NCBI GenBank assembly: GCA_023381515.1
Contig: JAMCQI010000018.1
Span: forward strand, 1 to 47,218
DNA length: 47,218 nucleotides
Direction of reading: 5' to 3'
Origin: Chloroflexota bacterium
GTDB lineage: Bacteria > Chloroflexota > Anaerolineae > UBA4142
Position 1 is the stretch's first letter. Each line of letters opens with the position of its first letter. This document shows positions 5,041 to 19,202 of the stretch, one piece after another. A program made the position numbers and the translations under genes. The notes beneath the pieces were generated by a model. The model was not told where the DNA came from. It did no database searches and saw nothing but the letters and a program-made list of their open reading frames with translations.

Positions 5041-5625
5041 ATGGGCCAAGTACACGTTTACAATTCGCATTTGGAGAGTTATGCCGCAGCAACCCGACTG
5101 CTTCGCGCAGTTCGGTCTGCTGGCGACTCGAGTTTCGTCTGGATAGAATCAGTCGGCAAACAAGATGATGTCCGATATCTTCATGATTCAACCGACCCAC
5201 CTGTTTCGGAGTTTCAATCGGTGTTGGCCGAGACAATTCTAGCCAATACTTGCGAAGTTCGATATTTGGTGCGTGTATCCGATACCGGCATGCTCGAAAC
5301 GGCACTCCAGCGGCATATCGTTCCGTTCGCCCAAGCGCAGCGCTATTTTGTGAAGGCCGCTGTGTTGGACCAAACACTCCATACACTGTCGCCACTGATC
5401 ATCGGTGACCGAAATACGCTTATCGGAATCGGACGGGAGGCCGCGATGACCGAGGCTTGCATTCACCTACACGATCAGGCTGCAACGAGACTGGCGATGC
5501 AATACTTCGAGATGCTGTGGAATGACAAATGCGCCGTAACGATTCGCGATGCCGATGGCGTGAACGATCGCGCGATCGACTTGCTGCGCAACGGCCTTCT
5601 TTTGAGGCAGGCGTTGGTTTCGTAA
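5041..5625 (+). CDS. Soluble member of a flanking paralogue pair, PLD-like regulator fold suspected
   Basis: This 194-residue cytosolic protein has unknown function. Three segments match the protein at 18462-19202: VHVYNSHLESYAAA with VWIES (residues 4-37), LSPLIIGDRNTLIGI (116-130), and CIHLHD followed by a helix ending in ALW/MLW and a TIRDADG strand (140-172). This order (strand, PLIIGD, charged strand, LW helix) recalls the PLD-like sensing domain found at the end of some transcription regulators. No catalytic HKD pair is present. Unlike its paralogue it lacks the two N-terminal membrane helices. No strong ribosome-binding site precedes ATG 5041, so the start is uncertain. The paralogues sit at the two ends of the tryptophan-related block, which suggests a shared role or a mobile unit. 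Confidence 0.65.
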   Translation: MGQVHVYNSHLESYAAATRLLRAVRSAGDSSFVWIESVGKQDDVRYLHDSTDPPVSEFQSVLAETILANTCEVRYLVRVSDTGMLETALQRHIVPFAQAQRYFVKAAVLDQTLHTLSPLIIGDRNTLIGIGREAAMTEACIHLHDQAATRLAMQYFEMLWNDKCAVTIRDADGVNDRAIDLLRNGLLLRQALVS

Positions 5626-5754
5626 CATTCGTATCCGGCCCAAGCTGACCGATGAACATGCGCGCGGTCTCATTTGGCCCGTCCCGTCGCGAACTCCAGA
5701 ACTTGCTTTCGCGTTTGCATCATTCCTGGGGAGAGCCATAGGCTAAAAGGACTG

Positions 5755-6498
5755 ATGTCCGTCCCAACCATCTCAGAGCGAATCTTCGAGAACTACATTG
5801 CTTCGCACGGAGTTGAATTCGAGCGCATTCCTGAGAATGGCGTGCCGAGACCGGATTACCGGGTCCGGATCAGGGCAGGGCCCCTCATCGTGGAGGTCAA
5901 GGAATTCAACAGGAGGCTAAACGAGGGTCACGAGGCTGATACCGATCCGGCTGTTCTTATTCGCGAAAAGATCAAGGGGGCTCGCAGGAAGTTTGATCTT
6001 TACCGGGATTGCGAGTGCTGTCTGGTGCTGTACAACCGTGGAAAGACGGGCTTGCTTCACCCGCAACAATTATTGCGAGCGATGTTCGGAGAACACGTTG
6101 AACCTGTTGGGATGAACGCGTATCGCTTCTCTGGCCTCGCCGAGTTGAGGCCGCATCAGAATACAAGACTGAGCGCCGTCGTCGCCTTATTGCCCGTTCC
6201 TGGGTACACTAGCATGCTCCGACACGTAGACCCTAGCATCAGCGCTCCTGGTGTTATCGCGACGCGCGAATCGATGCGGCAAGGCGGTCCCGACAGCGAC
6301 ACTGTTGTTGTCCGCGCCGCAGTTGTGGAGAATCCATTTGCGAGGCGGCCGTTGTCCCGTGAAGCATTCGATGGACCCTTCGACGAGCGATGGGCGAGGG
6401 TTGATGATGGCACTTTTCGTCTCGTGTCCTCCGGAACAAGCTTGGCAGCGATGCGGGCTGTCTTGCCTGAGCAAACACTAAAGCTGATGGGCTTCTGA
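5755..6498 (+). CDS. Hypothetical protein with PD-(D/E)xK-like nuclease motif
   Basis: This 247-residue protein has an N-terminal region with the layout of a restriction-endonuclease fold: a helix (ISERIFENYIASHG), then a PDY motif (D34), then a strand ending in VEVKEF (E47, K49). These are the expected metal-binding D and E-x-K positions. The rest, from about residue 70, contains a CCLVLYN strand consistent with the same fold. The C-terminal 120 residues are not recognised. ATG 5755 is chosen because AAAAGG ends 4 bases before it. A longer in-frame reading from 5674 lacks a good site. Without a partner methylase or a helicase next door it may be an orphan nuclease or a defence-associated protein. 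The nuclease call is inference from one motif cluster. Confidence 0.6.
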   Translation: MSVPTISERIFENYIASHGVEFERIPENGVPRPDYRVRIRAGPLIVEVKEFNRRLNEGHEADTDPAVLIREKIKGARRKFDLYRDCECCLVLYNRGKTGLLHPQQLLRAMFGEHVEPVGMNAYRFSGLAELRPHQNTRLSAVVALLPVPGYTSMLRHVDPSISAPGVIATRESMRQGGPDSDTVVVRAAVVENPFARRPLSREAFDGPFDERWARVDDGTFRLVSSGTSLAAMRAVLPEQTLKLMGF

Positions 6499-6759: not shown

Positions 6760-6835
6760 AGGCCAGTAGCTCAATTGGTAGAGTATCGGTCTCCAAAACC
6801 GAGGGTTGGGGGTTCGAGACCCTCCTGGCCTACCA
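6760..6835 (+). tRNA. tRNA-Trp, anticodon CCA, discriminator A73, CCA encoded
   Basis: The cloverleaf is complete. The acceptor stem AGGCCAG (6760-6766) pairs with CTGGCCT (6825-6831). The D arm is GCTC/GAGT. The anticodon stem TCGGT/ACCGA encloses CTCCAAA with anticodon CCA at 6793-6795. The T stem GGGGG/CCCTC (one G-T pair) encloses TTCGAGA. Discriminator A is at 6832 and CCA at 6833-6835. Bacterial tRNA-Trp normally carries G73, while archaeal and eukaryal tRNA-Trp carry A73. The first pair here is A1-T72, as in bacteria. The gene lies 120 bases upstream of an operon encoding an archaeal/eukaryal-type TrpRS, so a dedicated pair is likely. It looks functional, with no mispaired stem. Confidence 0.95.
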
Positions 6836-6955
6836 ACCGAACTGAAATGGGTCGGGTGATCGGAAACACCTGCGCGCCGCAGAGCGCTTGGCGACCTTCA
6901 GCTGCTCTGGTGCGGCTGGTCGTAGGCGGTAATTCGAATTGCGGTCGAGAGTCAA

Positions 6956-8008
6956 GTGAACACGAACACCGATCTTCGGAGCGTCCTCAGCGACGAGGGC
7001 CTAGTCCTCGACACGACTCCGTCTGTCCAAGGCATCGTCCAATCCGTAACCACTCGATCCGATTCGCATCATCCCGTCAAGATCATGTATGGCGAGACGT
7101 ACGATCGATTCGGCGCCACCTTTGACTCCCTAAAGTACTACTTCACAGTCGCCCTGATTGGGCGCGCTGCGGGTCCCACAGCAGTCCCATCCATCCTAAT
7201 TGCTGATATCGCGAGTTGTCGAAACGAGCCAGAAGAACGCCATGACGAGCTCATGGCAATTGGCGCGGCCAAAGTGAACTTCGTCAGGGCCGTGAGCAAC
7301 TTCTACTCCTTAGGCCTGCGGGTGGTCGCCATGAGCGAATACCTGGACACCGACGCCTTCCAGGATCGGCTACGCAGAATCCGGGCGCACGCCGCGAACG
7401 AGCAGCGGATCTTCGAATGGGTCAAGCAGACCGTGCCCGCTAGCAAAGTCGCTATCGAACAGGAAAAGGATTTCGCGTACGCATTCGAAGAAATCGCCAC
7501 CATAATCGAATACGACATCAAAGTTGGACCACCTCGGGAGCGGTTCTATGACGAGCCTGCCCGTTTGATTGCAGGCGCTATTGCGGTCCCACCTCTCTGC
7601 TCTGTGTACTTGCATCCGACCTTTCCGCTTGGCGTCGGGCCGGATCTCTTCCTCTCGAGTCCGGAAATCGAGGAGTTTGGGGTTACCGCCTACAAGGCTG
7701 GTAGCAAGGGCCTAGAGAAGAACCGGATTATCCTGGGCCAAACTTCGCAAGAAAGACTCGCGGCTCTGATTCAGCGATCGTTTGTAAGCAAGAAGCGCGA
7801 AGTACCCAACCCGGTCCTTGAGACTGCCGTGGTCGCCGAAATGGCGAGGCAGTGGATGGAGAACGACCACCGCCCCATTGAACTTCGCGCCGCGTTTTAC
7901 CGCGGCGACATTTCGCCGGCCCAACTCAAACAACTGGCTTTGCAAAGCGCTAAACGGTACGTCGTCGAACCGCTCCAAGCGATAGGACAGGCAGCCCTCC
8001 TCAGATGA
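6956..8008 (+). CDS. Degenerate class I aminoacyl-tRNA synthetase-like protein (TyrRS-like)
   Basis: This 350-residue protein resembles archaeal-type TyrRS in two regions. Residues 79-132 (ILIADIASCRN, then a helix and MSEYLDTD) align with the ILLADLHAYLN and SEF regions of archaeal TyrRS. Residues 285-346 (NPVLETAVV, then ELRAAFYRGDISPAQLK and EPLQAI) align with the TyrRS C-terminal NPxxE and HPMDLK helices. The HIGH position is replaced by an unrelated stretch (about 45-60), and no KMSKS-like motif is present near residues 250-265. Amino-acid activation is therefore unlikely. The start is GTG 6956, with GAGAG 5 bases upstream. The stop overlaps the TrpRS start by 4 bases (ATGA). TyrRS and TrpRS normally act as dimers, so I infer a non-catalytic partner of the adjacent TrpRS or a tRNA-binding scaffold. 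Confidence 0.7.
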   Translation: MNTNTDLRSVLSDEGLVLDTTPSVQGIVQSVTTRSDSHHPVKIMYGETYDRFGATFDSLKYYFTVALIGRAAGPTAVPSILIADIASCRNEPEERHDELMAIGAAKVNFVRAVSNFYSLGLRVVAMSEYLDTDAFQDRLRRIRAHAANEQRIFEWVKQTVPASKVAIEQEKDFAYAFEEIATIIEYDIKVGPPRERFYDEPARLIAGAIAVPPLCSVYLHPTFPLGVGPDLFLSSPEIEEFGVTAYKAGSKGLEKNRIILGQTSQERLAALIQRSFVSKKREVPNPVLETAVVAEMARQWMENDHRPIELRAAFYRGDISPAQLKQLALQSAKRYVVEPLQAIGQAALLR

Positions 8009-9231
8009 CCGATAAAGAAAAGAACGATAGAGCACTTGAAGTGGCGCTCGCCGACTACGAGCGAAAACTGGAGCAGAAGCGCGAGATCGAGAGCTACTAC
8101 GACAGCAAGCGTGAGGAGCTGAACCTAAAGAAGACCGACCGATTCCTGAAGTATCTTGACGATCCCGGACCATTCTTTAGTAGGGAAGTCCTTTACGCAC
8201 ACAATGATTTTGAAACCGTTTTGAAGGCTATAGCGGACGAGACCGAGTGGGCCATTGTCTCGGGCCTGAATCCTTCTGGTCCGCTGCACTTCGGTCACAA
8301 GGCGATGATGGACGTCTTGCTGTGGTTTCAGAGGACCTACCGCGCGCGCGTTTATATCCCCATCACGAACGACGAAACCTACGTCGTTGGCAAGGCCGAT
8401 AGCCTTAGGAAGTCGCGTCAAATAGCCTATGAGTTCGTTATACCGAGCATAATAGCTCTGGGCTTCGATCCGGCCCTGACCCACATTTTCGTTCACTCGG
8501 ACTATCCTTCGCTGACTAACTTAGCGATGTTTTTGGGTAAGTACACGACATACAACACCGTGAGAGGGCTGTTTGGATGGTCAGGAAGCGAGAACATCGG
8601 GACCGTTTTCTATATGGGCGCGCTCCAGATGGCGTCAATCATAATGCCGCAACTGCCGGAGTTTGGGGGCCCAAAGCCGGTCTTGGTTCCAGTGGGTATC
8701 GACCAACATCCCTATATCGCACTTTCGAGGGATGTTGCGAAGCGATTGAGGCTCATTCAGCCGTCTGAAGTCATCTGGAAGTTCCTGATGGGCCTGAAAG
8801 GGCCCGACAAGAAGATGTCGTCGTCGGTCCCCGACAGCGCCATCTGGCTGACGGACACCCCCCAGGAAGCGGCACGCAAGATCAAGAGAGCCTACACAGG
8901 CGGCAGTTCCCTAGCTAGCGTTCACCGCGAACGAGGCGGCATTCCGGAAGTGTGCTCCATTTTTTCGTTGATCGCGTTCAACTTCCTCTCTGACGACGCC
9001 TTCGACGCACTTCGAGACGACTACAGCTCCGGCCGTTTGCTGTCGGGGGATCTGAAGGCGCGCGCCATTGAATTGGTGAGCGACTTCCTCTCCGATCACC
9101 AGCGTGCACGCGAAGAAGCGAAGGGCAGGATCGAGGAGTTTCTCCTGAAGACGCCCATTCGCACACCTCTGGAAGCGGATGTAATCCCGGCTGCAGTTCT
9201 CGAAGAGGAAAGAGATGGCCACACAACGTAA
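8005..9231 (+). CDS. Archaeal/eukaryal-type tryptophanyl-tRNA synthetase paralogue
   Basis: This 408-residue cytosolic enzyme is predicted to charge tRNA-Trp with tryptophan or an analogue, using ATP. The class I signatures are intact: HFGH at 95-98 within GLNPSGPLHFGHK, and KMSSS at 270-274 followed by DSAIWLTDTPQEAARKI, a run typical of archaeal and eukaryal TrpRS. Other shared blocks are FFSREVL (57-63), TTYNTVRGLFG (181-191), VGIDQHPYIALSRDVA (230-245) and the C-terminal SSGRLLSGDLKA. The first 50 residues are a charged, probably helical extension. Bacteria normally use a shorter, divergent TrpRS, so this is probably a second, specialised copy. It overlaps its neighbours by 4 and 17 bases. 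A drug-resistant TrpRS is an alternative role. The amino-acid specificity is inferred from family resemblance only. Confidence 0.85.
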   Translation: MTDKEKNDRALEVALADYERKLEQKREIESYYDSKREELNLKKTDRFLKYLDDPGPFFSREVLYAHNDFETVLKAIADETEWAIVSGLNPSGPLHFGHKAMMDVLLWFQRTYRARVYIPITNDETYVVGKADSLRKSRQIAYEFVIPSIIALGFDPALTHIFVHSDYPSLTNLAMFLGKYTTYNTVRGLFGWSGSENIGTVFYMGALQMASIIMPQLPEFGGPKPVLVPVGIDQHPYIALSRDVAKRLRLIQPSEVIWKFLMGLKGPDKKMSSSVPDSAIWLTDTPQEAARKIKRAYTGGSSLASVHRERGGIPEVCSIFSLIAFNFLSDDAFDALRDDYSSGRLLSGDLKARAIELVSDFLSDHQRAREEAKGRIEEFLLKTPIRTPLEADVIPAAVLEEERDGHTT

Positions 9232-10369
9232 CTCCAAAGCGTATACAGCCGCCCTGGTAGGCGATGCCGATTCGAGTGGGGTCAACGCTGTGATGGGTCT
9301 CTTGGGGCGGGCCCTAGCAGCAAACGCGAGGGTGGTTTCTGGCGATTACCTCGACAGAAAGAATCTTGCTGACCGCCACACGACTTTTCACATCGGGATC
9401 TACAACAGCGACGGACTGGTAGACCTGATGAATTGCCCGGTGACTCTTCGAAATCTTAGTGCCACCTTGAACCAGGCAGATCGGCTCGTCTGGATCATTC
9501 GGCCGGACGATCTGAACGCGAGCCTTAAACGATCGATACTAGCAGCGATCCCTTTCGACATCAGGTCACATTTGGTCGTCTTTAACACGGCAGGGCTGTC
9601 TCCCGACCTGAAGGATCCGGAATTGCTTGAAGTAATGGCTGCCGAAGCACGCGATTTTTTTGAGAGTTCGCGCCTGTCGGTTGAGGCTTGGCTAACCGTC
9701 GATGCTCCTTCACCAGACCCCGCAGTTGAGTCATCCGGCGTAGATGCTCTTGCTTCATACTTGCTGACGAACTGGGTCAGGCCGCGGCACGCGCCCAGTG
9801 GCCATCCTGGGGCTGCGATTCTCTCGGTGGAACAGTCCTATAATGTGAGCGGTCATTCCGGAAAACCGACCCGCGCCGGCTACGGGCCGGTCAGAGGAGG
9901 GTCGGTGGCTGTCGGTCAGATGCTAGATCTCCTGATGGTGGGTGGCTCTACGGACCAAGTTCGAGTCGCCGAAATTCAGGAGTTCGGCCAAAGTATTGCG
10001 GAAGCCACCGTGGGGTCGAGTGCCGCAGTTCTTTTCCAAAGTGCTCCGAAGGACCGCCCGAAAGTGGGGGACGTGCTCACCGACCAACCCGCGCACTTTC
10101 AATTCGCAAGCGACTTCTCATTGGATCTATCGCTCCTTCCCGATGAGTTATTTGCCCAAGCGCTCGGTTCCTTGAACGGGCTGGATGTCTGTATTGGGAT
10201 GGCGTGCGTGAGCTGCAAGGTGCTCGCCATTCAGGCAAGTGCTCAGGACCCTACTAAGGGAACGATATCACTCCGTAGCCCTGTTTCCGTACCGTTTGTG
10301 GCCGGTCAAGCCACACTGGCTGGAAATGGAGCACAAATAATCGGATGGGGTGTAGTTGAAAGGAGTTAG
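9215..10369 (+). CDS. EF-Tu/SelB-like protein with degenerate G domain
   Basis: This 384-residue protein has the three-domain plan of translational GTPases that bind aminoacyl-tRNA. Residues 8-185 replace the G domain, but the P-loop is GDADSSGVNA (16-25) instead of GHxDHGKT, the DxPGH site reads NSDG (64-67) and the NKxD site reads NTAG (124-127), so GTP binding is unlikely. Residues 200-292 match domain II (VEQSYNVSGHSG, GGSVAVGQ, VAEIQEFGQSIAEATVGSSA, RPKVGDVLT). Residues 293-384 match domain III, ending GAQIIGWGVVE like archaeal SelB. Start ATG 9215 has GAGGAA 4 bases upstream. Located between TrpRS and a GNAT gene, it may hold Trp-tRNA for a transferase rather than for the ribosome. The family match is fairly clear. 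The role is inference. Confidence 0.75.
   Translation: MATQRNSKAYTAALVGDADSSGVNAVMGLLGRALAANARVVSGDYLDRKNLADRHTTFHIGIYNSDGLVDLMNCPVTLRNLSATLNQADRLVWIIRPDDLNASLKRSILAAIPFDIRSHLVVFNTAGLSPDLKDPELLEVMAAEARDFFESSRLSVEAWLTVDAPSPDPAVESSGVDALASYLLTNWVRPRHAPSGHPGAAILSVEQSYNVSGHSGKPTRAGYGPVRGGSVAVGQMLDLLMVGGSTDQVRVAEIQEFGQSIAEATVGSSAAVLFQSAPKDRPKVGDVLTDQPAHFQFASDFSLDLSLLPDELFAQALGSLNGLDVCIGMACVSCKVLAIQASAQDPTKGTISLRSPVSVPFVAGQATLAGNGAQIIGWGVVERS
10360..10365 (+). promoter_or_regulatory. Shine-Dalgarno deciding the GNAT start at 10374
   Basis: AAGGAG lies 8 bases before ATG 10374. An upstream in-frame TTG at 10356 would place this site inside the coding region, so 10374 is preferred. Confidence 0.75.
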
Positions 10370-10373
10370 GCAG

Positions 10374-11174
10374 ATGGCAGAGATTCCCGAAGCACGGTCG
10401 GGCCAATACCGCTTCCAAGTCGTTGATAATCCTTCGAGAACCCTCGATGAGGCGCAGAAGGCGTCGTTGATCAGTCAGTGTTGTCCGGTTGTAAGGGCGG
10501 CCTTCGGTAATCCCAAGATCACTGAAAGCGATATTGTCAAGCACGCAATCGAGGTCTCGACTGCAATCTTCGTGTGGCACCAGGACGATCGTCTTATCGG
10601 CTTCTCATCGAGTGTAGTGGATCATGCAAAAGGGCGCGATATCGTCTATCTTGAGGGCATTGTGATCGACCCGAAATTCCACGGCCTCGGGCTCTACTCA
10701 CCGCTAATATCATTGCGGATTCTGCTGGGCCTTCGGACTCTCGGAACGCATCAGGCCCTTGTTTGCACTAGAATCTCTAGCCCCAGAATCGTCAAGACGA
10801 TGATCCGGGGCTTCGGGCTATACCCCAAGCCCGGCACAGCGACGCCTGAGCATCTACGCGACGCCGCCGACGAGTTTGCCGACAAAGTGCGCCGCGATCA
10901 TAGCGATTTCCAAGGTAGTCGCTTCGACCGTGAGCACCTGGTGGTTCGTCAGGCATATGGTCCGGGATTCTGCATGTACGGGGACGATTTGCCGCGATGT
11001 GGCGACGATAAAGAGATTGACGACTTCGTGGAACAGAATCTCAACTACAAAGATGGGGACGCGTTCTTCATGATTGGCGAATGCTCACGCGACCAAGTAC
11101 TGAAGAGGCTCTTGACCTCCTGTAAGGGAGCACAATTGGACGGCGAACAGCTAGTAACCGTGTTCGGGCTGTAG
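10374..11174 (+). CDS. GNAT-fold N-acyl/aminoacyl transferase, unknown substrate
   Basis: This 266-residue protein contains a GNAT domain in residues 20-165. A WHQDDRLIGFSSS strand pair is followed by YLEGIVIDPKFHGLGLYSPL (about 98-117), which is the acyl-CoA pyrophosphate loop with an H-G-x-G core and the start of helix 3. Residues 165-266 form an extra C-terminal module, with CMYGDDLPRCGDD near the middle, that I do not recognise. The ribosome-binding site is strong. It follows the EF-like gene by 4 bases and precedes the deacylase gene by 9, so it belongs to the same operon. It may use acyl-CoA in the usual way. Because GNAT-fold enzymes also include aminoacyl-tRNA transferases (Fem and L/F-transferase families), it could instead take tryptophan from Trp-tRNA. 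The donor cannot be decided from sequence. Confidence 0.7.
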   Translation: MAEIPEARSGQYRFQVVDNPSRTLDEAQKASLISQCCPVVRAAFGNPKITESDIVKHAIEVSTAIFVWHQDDRLIGFSSSVVDHAKGRDIVYLEGIVIDPKFHGLGLYSPLISLRILLGLRTLGTHQALVCTRISSPRIVKTMIRGFGLYPKPGTATPEHLRDAADEFADKVRRDHSDFQGSRFDREHLVVRQAYGPGFCMYGDDLPRCGDDKEIDDFVEQNLNYKDGDAFFMIGECSRDQVLKRLLTSCKGAQLDGEQLVTVFGL

Positions 11175-11183
11175 CACCGAAAG

Positions 11184-12677
11184 ATGCACGCGATCCTGAT
11201 CAAAGGCGGTAATCTTCACGACGGCACTTCATTTATTGGAGTCGGCGACGTGCTTGTGGCAGACGACAGAATTGAGGCTGTCGGAACGTTGTCAGTGCCG
11301 GAGACTTTTCCCAGCGACGTAATCGATGCAACAGGGTGTGTGGTAGCGCCCGGGTTCATCGAATGCCACAACATGACGCAACAGGTCGAGAACCTCGATG
11401 GGAATGACGCGCTGAACCTGCTCGCACAAGGTGTCACAACGTGCGTGATTGGGAACTGCGGTATGGCGGGCGTGCTCGCCGCTGCGGACGGTTTTGTGCG
11501 GAAGTTCCAAATCCTTCGGGACTCTCGGCTTGGACTAAACGTAGGTAGCCTGGTGGGCCACAACACTCTCAGGCGCTATGTCGTGTCCGGTCCATCCCAG
11601 CCCTCGAGCCCCGAAGAAGTAGGCACCATGGAACGTATTCTCGAAGAGGCCCTTGATGCGGGGTATCTTGGTTTTTCGAGCGGCCTTATGTACGCGCCGG
11701 GGAGATCGGCCAGCCAAGCTGAAATGAGAGCACTGGCGACGGTCGTTGGGTGCAAGGACAAGGTCTACACATCCCACATTCGTGACGATGGAGATCATCT
11801 TCGGGCCGCGGTCGTTGAGGCATTGGACACGGCCCAGCAAGGTCAAGTGAAGCTCGTCATCTCCCACCTCAAGGCCGCTGGGAGGGCCAATTGGGGTAGC
11901 GCCATTGAGATGACGGAGGTCATCGAGGCGAGGCGCAGGGATCAAGAGGCGTACGTTTCGTTTTATCCTTACACCGCGACGTCTACAATCTTGAGGGCTG
12001 TGATACCCGAGAGCATTCTCTCATCGGTCGACGGGAACGTCGAGCGGCTGCGGTACAACGAGGATGATGCTCGAACTCTCGCTGCGGCCGGGCTGCAACG
12101 GTACGCAGACAACGGCTGGGGTGACGTAGTAGTCGTCAGTTCGAGAGTCGGGTCTTGTTTGGGCAAGTCCATCGCAGAGATTGCCGGTGATGCGCCTCCG
12201 TACGCCGCAGTTCTTGACATCCTCCAACAGGACGTGAACACCCGAGTCGTCTTCTACAATATCGCCTCGGACGCTGAACTCCAGGAAATCGCGAAGCGTC
12301 CTTGGGCGATGGTCGCGTCCGACGGATACGTCTACCCAACGGGGTGCGAAGAAGCAACACACCCTCGGAACTACGGCGCATTTGCGCGGGTCGTCAGTGA
12401 TTATGTGCGGAAACTAGGCATAATGACAATTGACGAATTCATTCGGCGCGTCACCACGTTGCCAGCAAAAGTGTTTGGAATTCAAAAACGAGGAGCGGTG
12501 AAGCCAGGGAACTTTGCCGATATCGCAGTTTTCAGACCTGACGAGATGCAGGATCTCTCCGATTATCAAACGCCGTGGAGGCCGGCGATTGGGGTGCGCT
12601 GCACAATCGTGAACGGACGGGTTGCATACAAGAACGGAAAGGCGACCTCAGCGTTTTCGGGCAGGTGCGTGTCATGA
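11184..12677 (+). CDS. D-aminoacylase-type N-acyl-amino-acid deacylase
   Basis: This 497-residue amidohydrolase-superfamily enzyme resembles N-acyl-D-amino-acid deacylases, which release D-amino acids from N-acyl forms. The visible active-site set is C92 (GNCGM), H198 (TSHIRDDGD), H228 (ISHLKAAGRANWG) and D380 (VASDGY), the cysteine, two histidines and aspartate expected for the main zinc site. The first beta-strand motif is PGFIECHNM, so H62 of the usual HxH is kept but the second histidine is replaced by methionine. In the characterised Alcaligenes enzyme this pair belongs to a weaker second metal site. A typical HPRNYGAFARVV block follows D380. It starts 9 bases after the GNAT gene and overlaps the racemase by 4 bases (ATGA). 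Together with the racemase it suggests conversion of N-acyl-L to free D-amino acids. The substrate is not visible. Confidence 0.8.
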   Translation: MHAILIKGGNLHDGTSFIGVGDVLVADDRIEAVGTLSVPETFPSDVIDATGCVVAPGFIECHNMTQQVENLDGNDALNLLAQGVTTCVIGNCGMAGVLAAADGFVRKFQILRDSRLGLNVGSLVGHNTLRRYVVSGPSQPSSPEEVGTMERILEEALDAGYLGFSSGLMYAPGRSASQAEMRALATVVGCKDKVYTSHIRDDGDHLRAAVVEALDTAQQGQVKLVISHLKAAGRANWGSAIEMTEVIEARRRDQEAYVSFYPYTATSTILRAVIPESILSSVDGNVERLRYNEDDARTLAAAGLQRYADNGWGDVVVVSSRVGSCLGKSIAEIAGDAPPYAAVLDILQQDVNTRVVFYNIASDAELQEIAKRPWAMVASDGYVYPTGCEEATHPRNYGAFARVVSDYVRKLGIMTIDEFIRRVTTLPAKVFGIQKRGAVKPGNFADIAVFRPDEMQDLSDYQTPWRPAIGVRCTIVNGRVAYKNGKATSAFSGRCVS

Positions 12678-13777
12678 GAATCCATACGATCGAACTGCGG
12701 CATATATGTTTGGAGCACGCCGAACCGTTCAAAACGAGCTTTGGGCGGTTCACTGAAAGACACTTAGTGATCCTGCAGTTGTGCACTGATATCGGCACAA
12801 CATATTGCGAGGCGCCTTCACTGATTGGCCCGTACTACACGTACGAGACAACGCAAACCACTATTCATATCGTTAGGGACTTCTTGGCCCCCGCTCTGCT
12901 GCGTCGCGAAATCAACTCGATCACCGAACTCCACGACGCGATGGCGTTCGTACGGGGCCACAACATTACCAAAAGCGCGTTTGACACCGGGTGGTATCAC
13001 CTGAGCGCAGCAAATGCTGGCCAGTCCCTTGGGCATTACCTTGGAGGCACGCGGGATCACATCGACGTCGGGATCAGTGTCGGGATTCAGCCCGATTTGG
13101 AAGCGCTGGTTCGATATGTCGATCGATCTCTGGCCGCGGGCTACTCGCGCATCAAGATCAAAATCGAGCCAGGGTGGGATGTCAAACCTGTGAGGGAGCT
13201 CCGTCGGGCCTTTGGCAACATACCCTTAATGGTTGACGCGAACTCGGCGTATCGCTTATCTGACATCGAAGTTTTCCAAGCGCTTGATCCGTTTGCCTTG
13301 CTGATGATTGAACAGCCCCTAGGCTATGACGATATCTATGAACACAGCAAACTTCAAGCGCGCATCGAGACTCCGATTTGTCTCGATGAGAGCATAAACA
13401 CCGTCGCCAACGCTCAAGAGGCGATTGCCATGAAGGCGTGCCGGGTGATCAACATCAAGTTGTCGCGAGTCGGTGGCCTGTTGCCTGCAAAGACGATCCA
13501 CGACATGTGCCGAGACGTTGGGATTCCGGTTTGGTGCGGGGGAATGTTTGAGTCCGCGATCGGCCAGTCTGACTGCATCGCTCTCGCGTCCCTGCCGAAC
13601 TTCAAGCTACCAGCTGACATCGGCCCGAGCGAGCGGTATTTCAAGAAGGACCTGATTTCGCCGTTCATCAGACTTGAGGGGGGACGAGTGAGGGTTCCGA
13701 CGGCCGCTGGCTTGGGTTTTCAGATTGACGAGGCCTTCCTTGAAGAATGCACGGTCGAGCGGTTCATTTTGGAATAG
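12674..13777 (+). CDS. N-acylamino-acid racemase / o-succinylbenzoate synthase family enzyme
   Basis: This 367-residue enolase-superfamily enzyme carries the full catalytic set in the order of the NSAR/OSBS family: K161-x-K163 (KIKIEPGWD), metal ligands D188 (VDANSAY), E213 (IEQPL) and D238 (LDES), and the opposing K262 (INIKLSRVGG). The GGMFESAIGQ and DIGPSERYF motifs are also typical of racemases acting on N-succinyl- or N-acetyl-amino acids. No other menaquinone genes are present, which favours racemase over OSBS. ATG 12674 overlaps the deacylase stop by 4 bases, and the usual N-terminus MRIHTIEL fits this choice over an upstream in-frame start. A COG3375-like GNAT gene lies 151 bases downstream, as in known NSAR operons. 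The likely role is inversion of an N-succinyl-amino acid at C-alpha. Confidence 0.88.
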   Translation: MRIHTIELRHICLEHAEPFKTSFGRFTERHLVILQLCTDIGTTYCEAPSLIGPYYTYETTQTTIHIVRDFLAPALLRREINSITELHDAMAFVRGHNITKSAFDTGWYHLSAANAGQSLGHYLGGTRDHIDVGISVGIQPDLEALVRYVDRSLAAGYSRIKIKIEPGWDVKPVRELRRAFGNIPLMVDANSAYRLSDIEVFQALDPFALLMIEQPLGYDDIYEHSKLQARIETPICLDESINTVANAQEAIAMKACRVINIKLSRVGGLLPAKTIHDMCRDVGIPVWCGGMFESAIGQSDCIALASLPNFKLPADIGPSERYFKKDLISPFIRLEGGRVRVPTAAGLGFQIDEAFLEECTVERFILE

Positions 13778-13928
13778 TCGTGTCGATGGCGTGTGCAAGC
13801 GAATCCGAAAACGCCCGGTCCAGCCTGAGCACAGCAGCGAACCGGACCTGCACAAATCGATGTAGAATGAGAATTCTGTGGTGACTCGATAGCGCTTTCG
13901 ACCGTCGCGGCGGGACGTGTGGAGTTTT

Positions 13929-14669
13929 ATGCCTGGAACCGTAGCGCCCCAAATCGTCATAAGGAACTGTACAAATCAGGCCGAGTGGTCTGAATGCGTC
14001 AAGTTGCAGGCAAGAATATGGGGGTACACGGAGGCGGACGTTCTTCCGTGGGACACCTTCAGCGTCGCGGTCGAAACCGGTGGCCAAGTAATTGGTGCCT
14101 TTCTCGGAGACGAGCTCGTTGGGTTCTCGCTCGCCTTCGTTGGCCTCCAGGGTGAGGCAGCGTACCTCCACTCAAACATGACTGCCGTTGCGCCCGAGTA
14201 TCGGAGCACGGGCATCGGGAAGATGCTGAAGTTGGCACAACGGGAGGACGGTATTGCCCGAGGGTTCGGGCACATGGAGTGGACCTTCGATCCACTTCAA
14301 ATCCGCAACGCTCACTTTAACATCGCCCGACTGGGGGCGGTGGTTCGAAAATACCTGCCAGATCTGTACGGGCCTACATCGAGTCCCCTGCATCGTGGCA
14401 TGCCGACCGACCGTCTGCTGGCCGAATGGTGGTGGAAATCCCCGCGTGTGTTGCGAATTCTCGGCGGAGAATCGCCGCTCATTTCCGGTGAAACACGAAG
14501 CGTCATCGTTCCAGCCGGCACGAAAGACCCGAGCGATCAAGGGCAGATCCGTAGCCAGTTTCAACGATATTTTTCGGAGGGCTGGGGTATACTAGGCTTC
14601 GAAAGACACGCCGACGCTGGAGCCTATATCCTCGCACCGTGGTCACAAATTGAGACCCAATTAACTTAA
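13929..14669 (+). CDS. GNAT acyltransferase, COG3375-like (amino-acid N-succinyltransferase type)
   Basis: This 246-residue GNAT protein matches the family found next to N-succinylamino-acid racemases. The marker blocks are VAPEYRSTGIGKMLKLAQR (acyl-CoA loop RSTGIG), MEWTFDPLQIRNAHFNIARLGA, and YGPTSSPLHRGMPTDRLLAEWW. In Geobacillus a protein of this kind succinylates amino acids as the first step of racemisation, and the same is inferred here. ATG 13929 has GGAG 4 bases upstream. A GTG start at 13917 is possible but has no comparable site. The 151-base gap after the racemase gene allows its own promoter, and a TAGAAT element at 13863-13868 could be its -10 box, though no good -35 is visible. 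A strong hairpin follows the stop. Confidence 0.8.
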   Translation: MPGTVAPQIVIRNCTNQAEWSECVKLQARIWGYTEADVLPWDTFSVAVETGGQVIGAFLGDELVGFSLAFVGLQGEAAYLHSNMTAVAPEYRSTGIGKMLKLAQREDGIARGFGHMEWTFDPLQIRNAHFNIARLGAVVRKYLPDLYGPTSSPLHRGMPTDRLLAEWWWKSPRVLRILGGESPLISGETRSVIVPAGTKDPSDQGQIRSQFQRYFSEGWGILGFERHADAGAYILAPWSQIETQLT

Positions 14670-14681
14670 TCACGTACTCTT

Positions 14682-14709
14682 GATCGGCGTGCACGCCTTC
14701 ACGCCGATC
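14682..14709. terminator. Bidirectional hairpin between convergent genes
   Basis: A perfect 10-bp inverted repeat (GATCGGCGTG / CACGCCGATC) with an 8-base loop sits between the stop of the GNAT gene (+) and the stop of the small minus-strand gene. There is no long T-tract, but the position fits a shared terminator. Confidence 0.55.
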
Positions 14710-15050
14710 TATCGAAAGACTGGCCCCGATCCGCGAGACGTGCGCCGCAAGTACACGTGATTCTGGTACATCTCCAGCATCTCGTCGACTACCGCGTGAA
14801 CGCCAACCAAGCGATCCCGGTAAGCCATGAGGTGCCTCGGAGCCCCGTCTGAGAGGCCCATCCCTGCTCCCTCATATACAGACGTTTCAGGCAGACCGTC
14901 GCGCATCGTAATCGATTCAGAGCAATTTGGGTCGGCCCGGCTCTTCCACGTTACCGTCACGTGCCCGCCCGTCACGCTTACTTCCAGCACGCCATCCGCG
15001 ACAGCCACCGGGCGGCCAATCGGCACTTTATCATTGTTTTCCTGCTGCAC
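14709..15050 (-). CDS. Small hypothetical protein, last gene of the TrpEG operon
   Basis: This 113-residue protein has no membrane helix or signal peptide. The first half is predicted beta-rich (VADGVLEVSVTGGHVTVTW), while the second half is helical (LVGVHAVVDEMLEMYQNHVYL) and basic at the end. The GTG start at 15050 is preferred over GTG 15071 because GGAGGT lies 6 bases before it. It lies 82 bases downstream of TrpG on the same strand. No family is recognised. Its size and position suggest an accessory or partner protein for the cluster rather than an enzyme of general tryptophan synthesis. Confidence 0.6.
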   Translation of the reverse strand: MQQENNDKVPIGRPVAVADGVLEVSVTGGHVTVTWKSRADPNCSESITMRDGLPETSVYEGAGMGLSDGAPRHLMAYRDRLVGVHAVVDEMLEMYQNHVYLRRTSRGSGPVFR

Positions 15051-15056
15051 GTTTGC

Positions 15057-15062
15057 ACCTCC
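15057..15062 (-). promoter_or_regulatory. Consensus Shine-Dalgarno for the small minus-strand gene
   Basis: GGAGGT on the minus strand, 6 bases before GTG 15050, decides the start. Confidence 0.75.
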
Positions 15063-15132
15063 AGAGTCCACGGCGACCTGATTTACTTGGCGTTCACCAG
15101 GGCCAGCAAACTCCAGTCTCCAAACAGCTCAA

Positions 15133-15711
15133 CTAACGTACATACTTCTCAATGAAGTTCAACACGATTCGCATACCGTTCTCAGTGTGAATGCTCTCTG
15201 GATGGAACTGAAGCGATTCTATCGGCAGAGTCCTGTGCCTCATTCCCATCACGTAGCCGTCGTCACAAGCCTTCGCACTCACGACGAGGGGGTGTTGAAC
15301 GCTCTCTTCGGCGACGATTAGCGAGTGGTACCTCGTCCCTGTCAACGGTTCCGGAAGTCCAGTGAAACAACCCTCCCCGTCATGGGAAATCTTACTGGTT
15401 TTACCGTGCATCAAGTGTTTGGCTTGCTCCACAACTCCACCGAAAGCAAGCCCGATCGCCTGATGTCCTAAGCAAACACCAAATATCGGAATGCCGGCGG
15501 CGGAAGCTTCCTTGATCATCGGTACGTAGCCCGCATCTGCTGGGTGACCAGGCCCAGGGCCCAAGACGATGAAATCAGGTCGCTGAGAGACTATTTCTTT
15601 CGGACTGATTTTATCATTGCGAACAACGCTCGCCTCCGCGCCGGCTACCATCAAATATTGGTAGATGATATAAACAAAACTGTCGTACGCATCAACCAGC
15701 AACGCCTTCAC
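15133..15711 (-). CDS. trpG: Anthranilate synthase glutamine amidotransferase subunit
   Basis: This 192-residue class I glutamine amidotransferase supplies ammonia to the synthase subunit encoded just upstream. The nucleophile C80 lies in GVCLGHQAIG, the oxyanion loop is GPGPGHP (51-57), and the C-terminal FHPES gives the His and Glu of the triad. YHSL is also present. The GTG start at 15711 is chosen because GAGGAG lies 7 bases before it and the protein then begins with the family-typical VKALLVDAYDSF. A longer in-frame reading would add 30 unrelated residues. The gene overlaps trpE by 20 bases, so the two are translationally coupled. PabA is the alternative name for the same fold. The partner favours TrpG. 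Confidence 0.88.
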   Translation of the reverse strand: MKALLVDAYDSFVYIIYQYLMVAGAEASVVRNDKISPKEIVSQRPDFIVLGPGPGHPADAGYVPMIKEASAAGIPIFGVCLGHQAIGLAFGGVVEQAKHLMHGKTSKISHDGEGCFTGLPEPLTGTRYHSLIVAEESVQHPLVVSAKACDDGYVMGMRHRTLPIESLQFHPESIHTENGMRIVLNFIEKYVR

Positions 15712-17212
15712 TGTCCAGCTCCTCGTCACAAATTGCCCAATACAGGGCCGCCATCTTACGCAGTGTCTCCCGCCACTCATTTTCGGGTGTTGAGTCCGCA
15801 ACGATACCAGCAGACGCTCGAACAGAATAGCGATCCCGGTGATGCATCGCCGTTCGGATACAAAGTCCCATCAAAACGGAATTGTCAAACCCTATCATGC
15901 CGACCGCGCCTGCGTATATTCCCCTCCGCGTGCTCTCTAACTCCTCTATGATCTCCATCGCGCGGATCTTGGGAGCACCGGTCATTGTCCCCGCCGGGAA
16001 TGTCGCCGCAATCACATCGTACGAGTCCTTGCCATCCGAGATTGTTCCCTTGACGTCAGATACCAAATGATGAACGTGTGAGTACGTCTCTATATGGGCG
16101 AGGTCGTCAACACACAGTGTCCCCGGTCGGCAGACGCGGCCAATGTCATTTCGGCACAGGTCAACGAGCATGACGTGCTCGGCCATTTCTTTCTCATCCC
16201 GTCTAAGCTGATCTGCCAAGTTCCGATCTTGCTCGGGATCAGCTGATCTACGTGTAGTACCCGCAATCGGACGCATGAGAATCTCTCCACCAGTTACCTC
16301 CACGAAAAGTTCCGGGCTCGCGCCAACGAGAGTTACCTCGCCAAATGGCGCGAGAAACATGTAAGGCGATGGGTTTCGAATACGGAGTCGCCTATATACA
16401 TCAAAAGGGTGAGCCGTCGTGGTGAACGATAGCTCATGACCGATCTGAACCTGGTATATGTCGCCAATACCGATATAGTGCAACGCCTTTCGGACAGCAT
16501 CACAATAAATGTCCTTCTTAGTGGAGTCCTCCTTTCGCAACGCTGCGGGAATCGGAGGCGCAGTCTTCACCTTGGCTAGGTCCCCGCGGTCGGACGACAA
16601 TGTTATGACATCCGTCAACCGTTTCACAGATTGAGTGATGGGAAAAGACTCACTGGCATGTATTACAAGAGTTGCCTTCCCCCGCATGTCTGCGCGAATC
16701 ACGCCACGGTAGATCGAGAGGTGCACATCCCAACTATCGCGATCTTCCGTGATCCGCCGAGGGAGGTCTTCGATCGCCCAAGCAGTGTCGTAGCCCAAAT
16801 ATCCGAAGAAGCCAAATGCCATTCCGCGCGACGATTGCCCCGGTTCATCGGCTATATAGAATCCACTCTGTACTGAGCGCAAGAGATTCCATAGCCCTCG
16901 CCTATTCGGCAACGAGAGGGAGTCGCTGGTTGCGATGAGCGCGCCGTCCAGTTTGGCCCTCTCAATTATGCGTGATCGGAGGACCGGCGCGCCCGTAATG
17001 TTGACGGTTCGGTCATGTACGCGCAGCGTTATAAGGGGATCAATACCGATAAACGAGGACTGCGTTTCTTGGCCAGCCAATGGTTCCAAGAGGTAGGCAT
17101 ATTCTGCCCCGTATTCAACGCGAATTGACATGAAGGCGCTGAAGGGGTCGATGTCCGACAGGGTATAGTGGGTGGTTTGAACGATCGTGTGGTAGGGGGT
17201 ATTTGAATTCAT
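15692..17212 (-). CDS. trpE: Anthranilate synthase component I with altered feedback motif
   Basis: This 506-residue chorismate-utilising enzyme is predicted to make anthranilate, the first step of tryptophan synthesis, with the adjacent TrpG. The C-terminal catalytic domain shows GDIYQVQIGHELS, LVGASPELFVEV, PIAGTTRRS (alanine in PIAGT favours TrpE over PabB, which has lysine), HVMLVDLCRNDIGRV, and AGTMTGAPK. The N-terminal regulatory domain has YLLEPL (40-45) where feedback-controlled TrpE proteins have LLES. The serine is a tryptophan-binding residue in Salmonella and E. coli, so reduced inhibition is plausible. The ATG overlaps the flavoprotein stop by 4 bases. Clustering with a TrpRS, a tRNA-Trp and modifying enzymes, without trpBACDF, suggests a pathway-specific copy boosting tryptophan supply. 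Confidence 0.87.
   Translation of the reverse strand: MNSNTPYHTIVQTTHYTLSDIDPFSAFMSIRVEYGAEYAYLLEPLAGQETQSSFIGIDPLITLRVHDRTVNITGAPVLRSRIIERAKLDGALIATSDSLSLPNRRGLWNLLRSVQSGFYIADEPGQSSRGMAFGFFGYLGYDTAWAIEDLPRRITEDRDSWDVHLSIYRGVIRADMRGKATLVIHASESFPITQSVKRLTDVITLSSDRGDLAKVKTAPPIPAALRKEDSTKKDIYCDAVRKALHYIGIGDIYQVQIGHELSFTTTAHPFDVYRRLRIRNPSPYMFLAPFGEVTLVGASPELFVEVTGGEILMRPIAGTTRRSADPEQDRNLADQLRRDEKEMAEHVMLVDLCRNDIGRVCRPGTLCVDDLAHIETYSHVHHLVSDVKGTISDGKDSYDVIAATFPAGTMTGAPKIRAMEIIEELESTRRGIYAGAVGMIGFDNSVLMGLCIRTAMHHRDRYSVRASAGIVADSTPENEWRETLRKMAALYWAICDEELDSEGVAG
15719..15724 (-). promoter_or_regulatory. Shine-Dalgarno of trpG inside the end of trpE
   Basis: GAGGAG on the minus strand, 7 bases before GTG 15711, supports the short TrpG start and translational coupling to TrpE. 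Confidence 0.75.
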
Positions 17213-17910
17213 GGTTGTTCCCGCTGGCAGGCCTCGGAAGTCGCCTCGACGTTCGCGAATGTCCGTTCGGTGCCGTCATCGACGTGAAGGAGCGCTTCAA
17301 AATGAGGTGCTACGGCGGGGGTCTTGAAGAGTTGGGCTGTCCGAACCATGCGTTCTATCAGCCGCCGAACCGAGTCGACGCCTTCAAGGTCAGTCATCAC
17401 GTCGCCAGCGCTCGTAGCATTAAGAAACGGCGGAAAACCGCTGCCGACGATGATCATCCTGTTAAGGAATAGGTTATTCAGCAACTGCGCGTAAGCCGCA
17501 TTGTGACCGTATCGGCGGCCAACAACAATGGCTCCACCAACCTTGTTTGTAAGGGGTCGCTCAAATCGCAGGTAACAGACCCCAGCGCGCTCCAAGAAGC
17601 TCTGCAGCGGGTGGGCGAGTCCGAACGCGTGGACAGGAGAAGCGTAGAGGATCGCGTCTGCCGAGCACATCAGAGCGATAATGCCACTCATGCCGTCGTC
17701 CTGATCGCATGGCGTCACGCGTGTTGTGCAATTGCGGCAGGTTCCGCATGGCACCAGACAATAATCACTCAGATGAAGGATCGTAGTGGACGCGCCGCAG
17801 GCCCGCCCCACTTCGGCAACGTACTCTAGAATTCTGGCGGTGCTCCCGGATTTTCGCGACGATCCGGAGATCGCCAACAGTTCGACCGGTAATGGCGGGA
17901 GCTGTCCCAT
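17209..17910 (-). CDS. NADPH-dependent FMN reductase / iron-sulfur flavoprotein
   Basis: This 233-residue flavodoxin-fold protein is predicted to bind FMN. GSSRKSGSTARI near the N-terminus is the phosphate-binding loop. PCGTCRNCTTRVTPC around residue 60 provides four cysteines in a C-x2-C-x2-C-x6-C arrangement like iron-sulfur flavoproteins, followed by DDGM and the YASPVHAFGLAHPLQSFLER flavin region. It would pass electrons from a reduced carrier to a partner or substrate. The ATG at 17910 gives the family length. An in-frame GTG at 18063 would add 51 residues with no domain signature, and neither start has a strong ribosome-binding site. It is the first gene of the four-gene minus-strand operon and overlaps trpE by 4 bases, so a redox step may belong to the pathway. 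Confidence 0.75.
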   Translation of the reverse strand: MGQLPPLPVELLAISGSSRKSGSTARILEYVAEVGRACGASTTILHLSDYCLVPCGTCRNCTTRVTPCDQDDGMSGIIALMCSADAILYASPVHAFGLAHPLQSFLERAGVCYLRFERPLTNKVGGAIVVGRRYGHNAAYAQLLNNLFLNRMIIVGSGFPPFLNATSAGDVMTDLEGVDSVRRLIERMVRTAQLFKTPAVAPHFEALLHVDDGTERTFANVEATSEACQREQP

Positions 17911-18461: not shown

Positions 18462-19202
18462 ATGCGGCGCGTTTTTCAGAACCAATGGACCGTCGGAATT
18501 GCCACGAACTTGATCGTCCTTGCCTTGACAGCGGCTGCGTCTAAGGGCTTCAGTATCGGATCGGTTCCGCTATACGTGCCGATCGCGGCCATCCTCGCCT
18601 CGCTCGGCGCGACGGCGTTGCTCCACGCCAGCCGTCGGGTCCGACTGTATTACACCAGAGAGGAAGCATATCGCGCAGCATGTGAAACCATCAAAGCCAC
18701 GCAACCCACGAAGAATGAGAACGTGATCTGGATCGAGTCGATCAACAGTACAAGCGACCGAAGAAGACGAGAAGCGAGACGGCAAGATGTTGTTATTGGC
18801 GAATACGAGGCCGCCATCATGGCTAAGATCATGTCGTCGGAGTGGCGAGTTCAGAGGCTTTTTAATATCCCTTCAACAGAAATATTGCAGTGGGTGGTAG
18901 AAACATACGTAGATCCGTTTCCTACGGCCCGTTGCTACGAGGTGCGTGCCATTATTCCAGGATCAGCGTCAGCAACACTTGGCCCTCTTATTATCGGAGA
19001 GAAGGACGTGCTCGTCTCTGTGGCACAGGACGACACGGGGGCCAAAGCGTGCATTCACATGCACGACAGAACCATCGTGAGTCTGATGAAAGATCACTAT
19101 AGGGCGCTTTGGGGCGCTGGGACGGTGGTCTTGAGGGACTCTGACGGGAAGAATGAAGCAGGTCTTGCAACGGCGCGGGATCGCCTGAATTCCACACATT
19201 GA
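18462..19202 (+). CDS. Membrane-anchored member of the flanking paralogue pair
   Basis: This 246-residue protein starts with two hydrophobic helices (about 10-28 and 33-54), which should form a membrane hairpin with the rest in the cytosol. The cytosolic part shares its layout with the protein at 5041-5625: VRLYYTREEAYRAA and VIWIES (60-93), LGPLIIGEKDVLVSV (173-187), and CIHMHD with a following helix ending ALWG and a VLRDSDG strand (197-230). A positively charged stretch (RRRREARR) lies at about 100-107. The fold may be a PLD-like sensing domain, but no catalytic HKD motif is present. ATG 18462 has GGAG 7 bases upstream. Function is unknown. Because it pairs with a soluble paralogue at the other end of the tryptophan block, the two may interact or respond to the same ligand. 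Confidence 0.65.
   Translation: MRRVFQNQWTVGIATNLIVLALTAAASKGFSIGSVPLYVPIAAILASLGATALLHASRRVRLYYTREEAYRAACETIKATQPTKNENVIWIESINSTSDRRRREARRQDVVIGEYEAAIMAKIMSSEWRVQRLFNIPSTEILQWVVETYVDPFPTARCYEVRAIIPGSASATLGPLIIGEKDVLVSVAQDDTGAKACIHMHDRTIVSLMKDHYRALWGAGTVVLRDSDGKNEAGLATARDRLNSTH

Follow-up and report, generated by a model that had tools for sequence, protein, structure and literature searches.

A tRNA-Trp, an archaeal-type tryptophanyl-tRNA synthetase and an elongation factor relative encoded together in a Chloroflexota bacterium: a candidate line for tryptophan outside translation

The window analysed here is a stretch of 47,218 nucleotides from a Chloroflexota bacterium (GenBank assembly GCA_023381515.1, contig JAMCQI010000018.1), in which positions 6760 to 17910 hold a tRNA-Trp gene together with an archaeal-type tryptophanyl-tRNA synthetase (TrpRS-A), a protein with the fold of tyrosyl-tRNA synthetase (TyrRS), here called ORF1, a protein derived from elongation factor Tu (EF-Tu) and enzymes associated with D-amino acids. 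We propose, with what we judge to be an even chance of being right, that the tRNA, TrpRS-A, ORF1 and the EF-like protein form a private line that moves tryptophan (Trp) off the ribosome to a small molecule, probably a D-amino acid, that serves as acceptor. TrpRS-A would charge only this tRNA, whose discriminator base is A73; the EF-like protein would bind the Trp-tRNA and withhold it from EF-Tu; ORF1 would remove Trp from the tRNA, perhaps via Thr48, and couple it to an amine. A GNAT protein, an N-acyl(succinyl)amino-acid racemase (NSAR) and a D-aminoacylase may produce the D-amino acid by an N-acyl route, for which an Asp/Glu racemase would stand in at other loci. A wider form of the proposal is more doubtful, although we consider it possible: a translation-like line running in parallel off the ribosome, with its own tRNA, synthetase and GTP-free elongation factor, in which ORF1 would represent a TyrRS-derived family of peptide-bond formers without detectable sequence kinship to the cyclodipeptide synthases (CDPSs), joining tRNA-borne Trp to a racemase-made D-amino acid, also in DPANN archaea as operons of tRNA-Trp, an ORF1-like gene and an Asp/Glu racemase.

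The core lies on the plus strand. The tRNA-Trp gene (6760..6835; anticodon CCA, encoded CCA end) was called by ARAGORN and scores 67.8 bits in Rfam. It is followed by ORF1 (6956..8008), a putative Trp-tRNA-dependent transferase, by TrpRS-A (8005..9231) and by the gene of the EF-like protein (9215..10369), a putative private carrier of Trp-tRNA, with overlaps of 4 and 17 bases joining the three protein genes. The full gene set listed in the initial annotation was recovered at its positions by ARAGORN, Rfam, Pfam, NCBIfam and fold comparison, including an active-looking archaeal/eukaryal-type TrpRS, a degenerate synthetase-like protein (ORF1), an EF-Tu/SelB-like protein without GTPase motifs, two GNAT proteins, a D-aminoacylase and an NSAR racemase. 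Its statement that no described system contains such a set is wrong for the core, as the tRNATrp(A73)/ORF1/TrpRS-A module is known. Indeed, such operons were described in a few Microgenomates bacteria and DPANN archaea, with 12 TrpRS-A in total, together with TrpRS-A-like genes in archaea, and in the parts of the paper drawn on here the function of the module is left open (Mukai et al. 2017, PMC5370408). In open-licence full text, TrpRS-A appears together with ORF1 in PMC5370408 alone, and the passages drawn on from PMC9437257, PMC11610984 and PMC5424206 contain no functional follow-up.

In the same parts of that paper, the published module and the window share the core and its order, tRNA-Trp with A73, ORF1 and TrpRS-A; as in the loci described below, the module is additional to the canonical TrpRS, archaea have further ORF1 copies, and a trp repressor or a bacteria-type TrpRS adjoins it (PMC5370408). 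The window differs in the A1-U72 pair of its tRNA, the EF-Tu-derived protein and the D-amino-acid enzymes. The published ORF1 is reported to have HIGH-like motifs and to lack a Rossmann domain, whereas the ORF1 studied here is modelled with a full TyrRS fold and has no HIGH motif (PMC5370408, same parts); the two are equated by position, partners and the host groups of relatives rather than by accession. The host of the window, neither a Candidate Phyla Radiation bacterium nor a DPANN archaeon, probably falls outside the known host groups. The core module is known but unexplained, and the window adds two features that sharpen its function.

A scan of GTDB genomes yielded 17 ORF1 loci. The initial annotation had made its pathway idea depend on the EF-like and TyrRS-like genes travelling with TrpRS and tRNA-Trp. 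For the TyrRS-like gene this is borne out: an archaeal-type TrpRS gene follows ORF1 in 16 of the 17, directly or past one small peptidase gene (an M28 peptidase in L004, L008 and one of the two L005 copies), while the contig of the seventeenth, L017, stops within ORF1. In L014 the two are fused in a single ORF of 698 amino acids. A second ORF1 type with a further TrpRS-like gene lies upstream in L002, L004, L005, L007, L017 and genome G541. ORF1 was found in one of 379 genomes of the G012 phylum (G012 itself) and in ten of 371 of the G006 phylum, five of them distant; a profile of the distant ORF1 type found 15 in genomes of the latter. ORF1 was not found in IMG/VR viral contigs, PLSDB plasmids or INPHARED phages.

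The window TrpRS matches PF00579 and the NCBIfam model PRK12285 (311 bits, under its cut-off of 478) and keeps both signature motifs, HIGH (as LHFGH) and KMSKS (as KMSSS). In a tree of module and housekeeping TrpRSs, into which published TrpRS-A sequences did not enter, 15 module TrpRSs including that of the window form one group apart from the housekeeping enzymes (support 100/98), in which the window protein takes a basal position within a sub-group that has both archaeal and bacterial members (96/80). At least two TrpRSs exceed the TIGR00233 cut-off in 15 of the 17 carrier genomes (G003, with two TyrRS and three TrpRS, is possibly a mixed bin), which argues that the module TrpRS is normally an extra copy. 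Pairwise distances of ORF1 and TrpRS are correlated (r 0.82, 16 pairs, reached in 0 of 10,000 permutations). YbaK-type editing domains (PF04073), both free and fused to TrpRS, occur near the module in L008 (14424-14912) and L010 (7492-8946), where they possibly act against mischarging.

ORF1 has no match in Pfam, NCBIfam, PADLOC or PHROG. In the predicted structure, residues 2-345 of 350 align to the whole of TyrRS, with the anticodon-domain region retained; since sequence profiles link the close family to TyrRS only weakly (1.7%, against 96% after paralogues are added), the relationship rests on the fold. The HIGH motif, written as [HT]-hydrophobic-G-[HN], is matched by 0 of 121 aligned rows, and the active-site set is remodelled, with 26 of the 34 inspected positions identical in all 121 rows; T48 and E179 are invariant in this close family. 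The rows represent the best 120 of 317 matches with the window protein present twice (P0005), and more divergent ORF1s, including four with E179A, lie outside them. By alignment to TyrRS, and by an equivalence that we assume, Thr48 occupies the position of the catalytic Ser of CDPSs, and E179 would correspond to their catalytic Glu. ORF1 as a member of the CDPS family was rejected on the missing match to PF16715; among the 50 structural matches listed for the ORF1 model there is no CDPS chain, an absence that carries no weight. CDPSs of the AlbC family are alike in having a TyrRS/TrpRS-like Rossmann fold and in using aminoacyl-tRNA off the ribosome, as proposed for ORF1 (PMC12945691, in the passages drawn on), from which ORF1 differs in its 350 residues with an anticodon-domain region and in having Thr rather than Ser; unlike them, the window has its own TrpRS and tRNA. 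SbzA (IleRS-like) and AcmF (AlaRS-like) are likewise synthetase-like enzymes of small-molecule pathways that use aminoacyl-tRNA, derived from other synthetase lineages than ORF1 and mentioned without a dedicated tRNA in the passages drawn on (PMC12945691; for SbzA also PMC9437257). The initial annotation had assigned the transfer of Trp to a GNAT protein; ORF1 is the likelier transferase because it is the partner that is conserved, whereas searches of the 17 loci turned up a homologue of GNAT 1 in one and none of GNAT 2.

Profile searches also revealed distant ORF1-like proteins of 221-334 amino acids in ten genomes. An Asp/Glu-racemase gene, identified by PF01177 or NCBIfam racemase models, directly follows or overlaps the ORF1-like gene in six of them (G475, G548, G626, G681, G432 and G682), a count that includes L118, whose ORF1-like match is weak (25 bits, pocket residues mostly unaligned). 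Of the eight racemases compared, the L003 and L014 enzymes in addition to these six, all have CNT as first Cys motif, and all except that of L014 have CTE as the second. In G475 and G681, the ORF1-like gene is preceded on its own strand by a tRNA-Trp, at a distance of about 126 and 100 bases; the order is tRNA-Trp, ORF1-like gene, racemase, and no TrpRS occurs in the 16 kb and 13 kb fetched. A TrpRS gene follows the ORF1-like gene in G675 and G433, and neither TrpRS nor racemase does so in G595 and G628; altogether, the fetched stretch (5-16 kb) lacks a TrpRS at eight of the ten distant loci. The TrpRS-free loci argue that ORF1-type proteins are more than TrpRS subunits, and the distant loci link them to tRNA-Trp and amino-acid racemisation. 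Genes for AsnA (Asp-ammonia ligase) and an AsnC/Lrp-type regulator lie near one such operon (L076, 2075-4655).

These data bear on the suggestion, among those made in the parts of Mukai et al. drawn on here, that ORF1 is a partner of TrpRS-A without catalytic function, either a heterodimer subunit or an anticodon-recognition arm (PMC5370408). The adjacency of the two genes, the L014 fusion, their parallel evolution and the retained anticodon-domain region would all fit such a partner, as would the dimerisation of class Ic synthetases to which the same source refers. The invariance of the active-site set would be unexpected for a scaffold, and besides the scarcity of TrpRS at the distant loci most ORF1-like proteins appear, from their length, too short to hold an anticodon part. 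We regard a purely structural role as improbable.

The tRNA of the window combines a bacterial body (A1-U72) with A73 and has U33. A73 is the archaeal/eukaryal determinant of tRNA-Trp and G73 the bacterial one (PMC9976931, in the passages drawn on). Gene calls are those of ARAGORN, with the module tRNAs of L001, L005, L010-L013 and L016 and those of L076, L080 and L114 confirmed by Rfam, whereas the L009 tRNA-Trp, called by neither, was read by eye in a partly masked stretch; pattern scans also matched other tRNAs and non-tRNA sequence, and such matches were not counted. The adjacency of tRNA-Trp, which the initial annotation had raised for checking, is found in eight of the 17 loci (L001, L005, L009, L010, L011, L012, L013 and L016) and in G541, the L005 and L011 genes containing introns. 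A73 occurs in all five bacterial module tRNAs and in archaeal L005, L011 and G541, while five tRNA-Trps located elsewhere in bacterial carriers have G73; G012 and G013 contain both kinds. The tRNA-Trps of the archaea L019 (G002) and L001 carry G73, against the archaeal A73 rule, and DPANN archaea may themselves be mixed in their tRNA-Trp identity. Two orthogonal PylRS/tRNAPyl pairs are similarly separated by G73 and A73 while using one amino acid; these serve translation, and no ORF1 or EF-like partner is mentioned in the passages drawn on (PMC9976931).

In the module tRNAs of L009, L010 and L012, all from Shapirobacteria, base 33 is C rather than U. Among the 44 ARAGORN-called tRNAs of the fetched loci (some genes counted twice, L009 excluded), 40 have U33, those with C33 being L010, L012 (twice) and one tRNA-Arg in L014. 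As U33 is important for decoding, the three module tRNAs appear poorly suited to the ribosome.

The EF-like protein matches the NCBIfam EF-Tu model at E 3e-4 and gives E 0.012 in a direct PDB search. Profile-profile comparison with EF-Tu gave 88% over 301 columns, extending into domain 3 to the C-terminus, against less than 1% for four unrelated controls, which upholds the homology; its structure model is poor (pLDDT, predicted local distance difference test, 44). The GTP motifs are lost in all four EF-like sequences, DCPGH being replaced by NCPxT and NKxD by NTxG, with no GHVDHGKT. These four, one of them the window's own, were all that a search of 5.8 billion proteins found (7998 candidates scored), and a search with residues 1-200 found nothing beyond the query; since the partial query returned itself alone and the full length four proteins, both searches are insensitive. 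One relative, P0003, is labelled Acidobacteriota (61-62% identity); with the bacterial body of the tRNA and the bacterial defence genes to the right, it would give no more than a hint of an Acidobacteriota-like host for this contig assigned to Chloroflexota. Another, P0004, agrees with the ORF1 protein P0008 in source and in the length of the longest contig (11,350), and the two presumably share a contig. A role as private carrier of Trp-tRNA is predicted from this relationship.

An EF-Tu-derived factor beside a private tRNA with a normal CCA anticodon and U33 would also suit the modification of Trp on the tRNA before translation and insertion of an unusual residue at UGG, much as SelB is the elongation factor serving selenocysteine. 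Such a system would make UGG ambiguous with respect to the housekeeping tRNA-Trp, its factor would lack the GTP motifs, and C33 in three loci speaks against decoding; we consider it very improbable.

Downstream of the EF-like gene, on the same strand, are GNAT 1 (10356..11174, slightly below the Pfam cut-off, with ATG at 10374 as a possible alternative start), a D-aminoacylase-type amidohydrolase (11184..12677; Pfam and NCBIfam), whose nearest solved chain is N-acyl-D-glutamate deacylase, NSAR (about 12674..13777, start placed by alignment to 1sja) and GNAT 2 (13917..14669; Pfam), which belongs to the same gene run and of which no homologue was found in the other loci. NSAR aligns to 1sja with 309 bits, a homology to the NSAR/OSBS family in which the two activities are not separable by sequence, and keeps KIKIE and NIKL, whose two Lys we take to be catalytic. 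The hydrolase retains, by eye, a Cys, two His and an Asp, presumably with the roles known from D-aminoacylases, and lacks the second His of HxH. A D-type deacylase acting with NSAR would convert N-acyl-L-amino acids to D-amino acids, and the pair points to D-amino acid production or handling. In L006 there are homologues of GNAT 1 (30%, itself unmatched in Pfam), the D-aminoacylase (34%) and NSAR (52%); L003 and L008 contain enolase-superfamily genes 29% like NSAR, and L003 and L014 Asp/Glu racemases. A Pfam scan of the GNATs to E 0.1 for FemABX-type aminoacyl-tRNA transferases gave acetyltransferase models alone. GNAT 2, in contrast to the Trp-poor ORF1, is rich in Trp (10 of its 250 residues, 4%).

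Another explanation, close to ideas in the parts of Mukai et al. 2017 drawn on (PMC5370408), makes TrpRS-A and its tRNA an auxiliary charging pair for translation at low Trp, with ORF1 stabilising or regulating it and the neighbours gaining Trp through racemase/deacylase salvage, aminotransferase, tryptophanase, TrpEG and peptidases. In 18 ORF1 sequences Trp makes up 10 of 6109 residues (0.16%) against a background of 0.79%, and at five of the eight bacterial loci (L009, L010, L012, L013 and L016) neither ORF1 nor TrpRS contains any Trp, an absence also noted in the same source (PMC5370408). A tryptophanase-family gene occurs in L006, aminotransferases in L002, L004 and L006, and a TrpR-related gene before L013. 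A low Trp content is what one would expect of enzymes required when Trp is short, and for this reason the explanation retains a real share of our belief, although we hold it to be unlikely overall. The TrpRS-A set (0.44% Trp) is no poorer than six housekeeping archaeal-type TrpRSs (0.50%), and the window proteins are not markedly Trp-poor (ORF1 0.57%, TrpRS 1.23%). Moreover, the C33 tRNAs and the distant operons of tRNA-Trp, ORF1-like gene and racemase without TrpRS do not fit a charging pair, and the window hydrolase is D-type and would release a D-amino acid.

Alternatively, TrpRS-A and the private tRNA could sustain translation when the bacterial TrpRS is blocked by an inhibitor, whether this is a product of the cluster or is encountered in the surroundings. 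The orthogonal identity base, proteins that could be made under TrpRS block as they are Trp-free, and EamA transporters near L003, L010, L012 and L076 agree with this, and indolmycin producers have a second, insensitive TrpRS (PMC9437257, in the passages drawn on). Indolmycin-resistant TrpRS1 and TrpRS II, the partner of nitric oxide synthase, are auxiliary enzymes like TrpRS-A, for which those passages mention neither an own tRNA nor an ORF1 (PMC9437257). Such self-protection would leave ORF1, its TrpRS-free relatives and the C33 tRNAs unexplained, and we give it little credence.

Several results weigh against a private Trp line ending in a D-amino acid. The Trp poverty of ORF1 and the TrpR-related gene at the start of L013 (TrpR 65.3 bits, cut-off 67.25; YerC/YecD 42.6, cut-off 42.2) fit Trp shortage better than Trp consumption. 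The EF-like gene was found in none of the 17 genome loci, and racemase-type genes lie near just four of them besides the window (L003, L006, L008 and L014). No tRNA-Trp was detected by the other nine modules, with the contigs of L004 and L017 cut and intron-bearing or masked tRNAs liable to escape detection. The window tRNA (A1-U72, U33) does not have the G1-C72 pair of archaeal tRNA-Trp, the L001 module tRNA has G73 instead of A73, and C33 is not confined to tRNA-Trp, as the L014 tRNA-Arg shows. Three module TrpRSs (L011, L014 and L015) fall outside the TrpRS-A group. Within ORF1, E179 is replaced by Ala in 4 of 18 proteins (L010, L012, L013 and L016), and distant relatives have Gly or Glu at Thr48 where aligned. 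The anticodon-domain region has no counterpart in CDPSs; PF16715 is not matched by ORF1 at E 0.1 or by seven relatives at E 1; and kinship to CDPS profiles is below 7%, a blunt test since TyrRS itself scores 1%.

The minus strand beyond GNAT 2 encodes three proteins of uncertain membership in the module: a TrpG/PabA-like glutamine amidotransferase (about 15133..15711, start placed approximately), a TrpE/PabB-like chorismate-binding enzyme (15692..17212; Pfam and NCBIfam) and an NADPH-dependent FMN reductase resembling iron-sulfur flavoproteins (17209..about 17910; Pfam FMN_red, with a cysteine motif), whose ORF extends to 18063 with a probable start near 17910. The TrpE model does outscore PabB-clade2 (405 of 517.7 bits, against 342 of 408.6), as the name given initially implied, but both are under their cut-offs and the two identities are not separated. 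Feedback-inhibited TrpEs carry LLES; here LLEP is found, hinting at a deregulated enzyme. The proposed part of TrpE and TrpG in the Trp line is uncertain, their identity being ambiguous and no such genes being found with the modules of the 17 loci.

The cluster has a G+C content of about 0.56, against 0.66 at the left of the window, and a promoter and terminator scan gave counts not clearly above those of shuffled sequence (3 against 4.9 and 13 against 10.6). Two homologous genes of a family without a name (5041-5625 and 18462-19202; same strand, 28% identity, E 2e-29) flank the cluster, placed as if they were end marks of an inserted block; they have no PHROG or PADLOC match and nothing over the Pfam cut-off. 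An ORF at 5674-6498 resembles, by eye, a PD-(D/E)XK-type nuclease, with no family match. Phage tail genes at 3-4500 (tail-sheath TIM barrel, phage tail repeat) stop directly left of the block and can be read as a prophage border or a tail-like element. Phage attachment at the tRNA-Trp was considered and rejected, as the 26 bases at its 3' end have a single occurrence in the window with up to 3 mismatches allowed, leaving no attachment repeat inside it, although one may lie outside. At 19521-46918 the minus strand carries defence-type genes, including ZacB/ZacC-like, DUF6361, DrmMI/type IIG methylase-like and DpdE-like and DruE-like helicase genes, with weak Dsr1-like and LmuB-like matches.

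To our knowledge, the tRNA-dependent enzymes of natural-product pathways known so far take their charged tRNA from translation. Here a synthetase, a tRNA and a candidate transferase travel together, and the window adds a relative of elongation factors. If the private line is real, TrpRS-A and its tRNA would be an orthogonal pair that occurs in nature and has a role outside translation, and such Trp pairs would be ready for code expansion. The line would also give a role to the TrpRS-A/ORF1 module, whose function was left open in 2017, and would mean that uncultured bacteria and DPANN archaea have a new way of making small molecules that contain D-amino acids.

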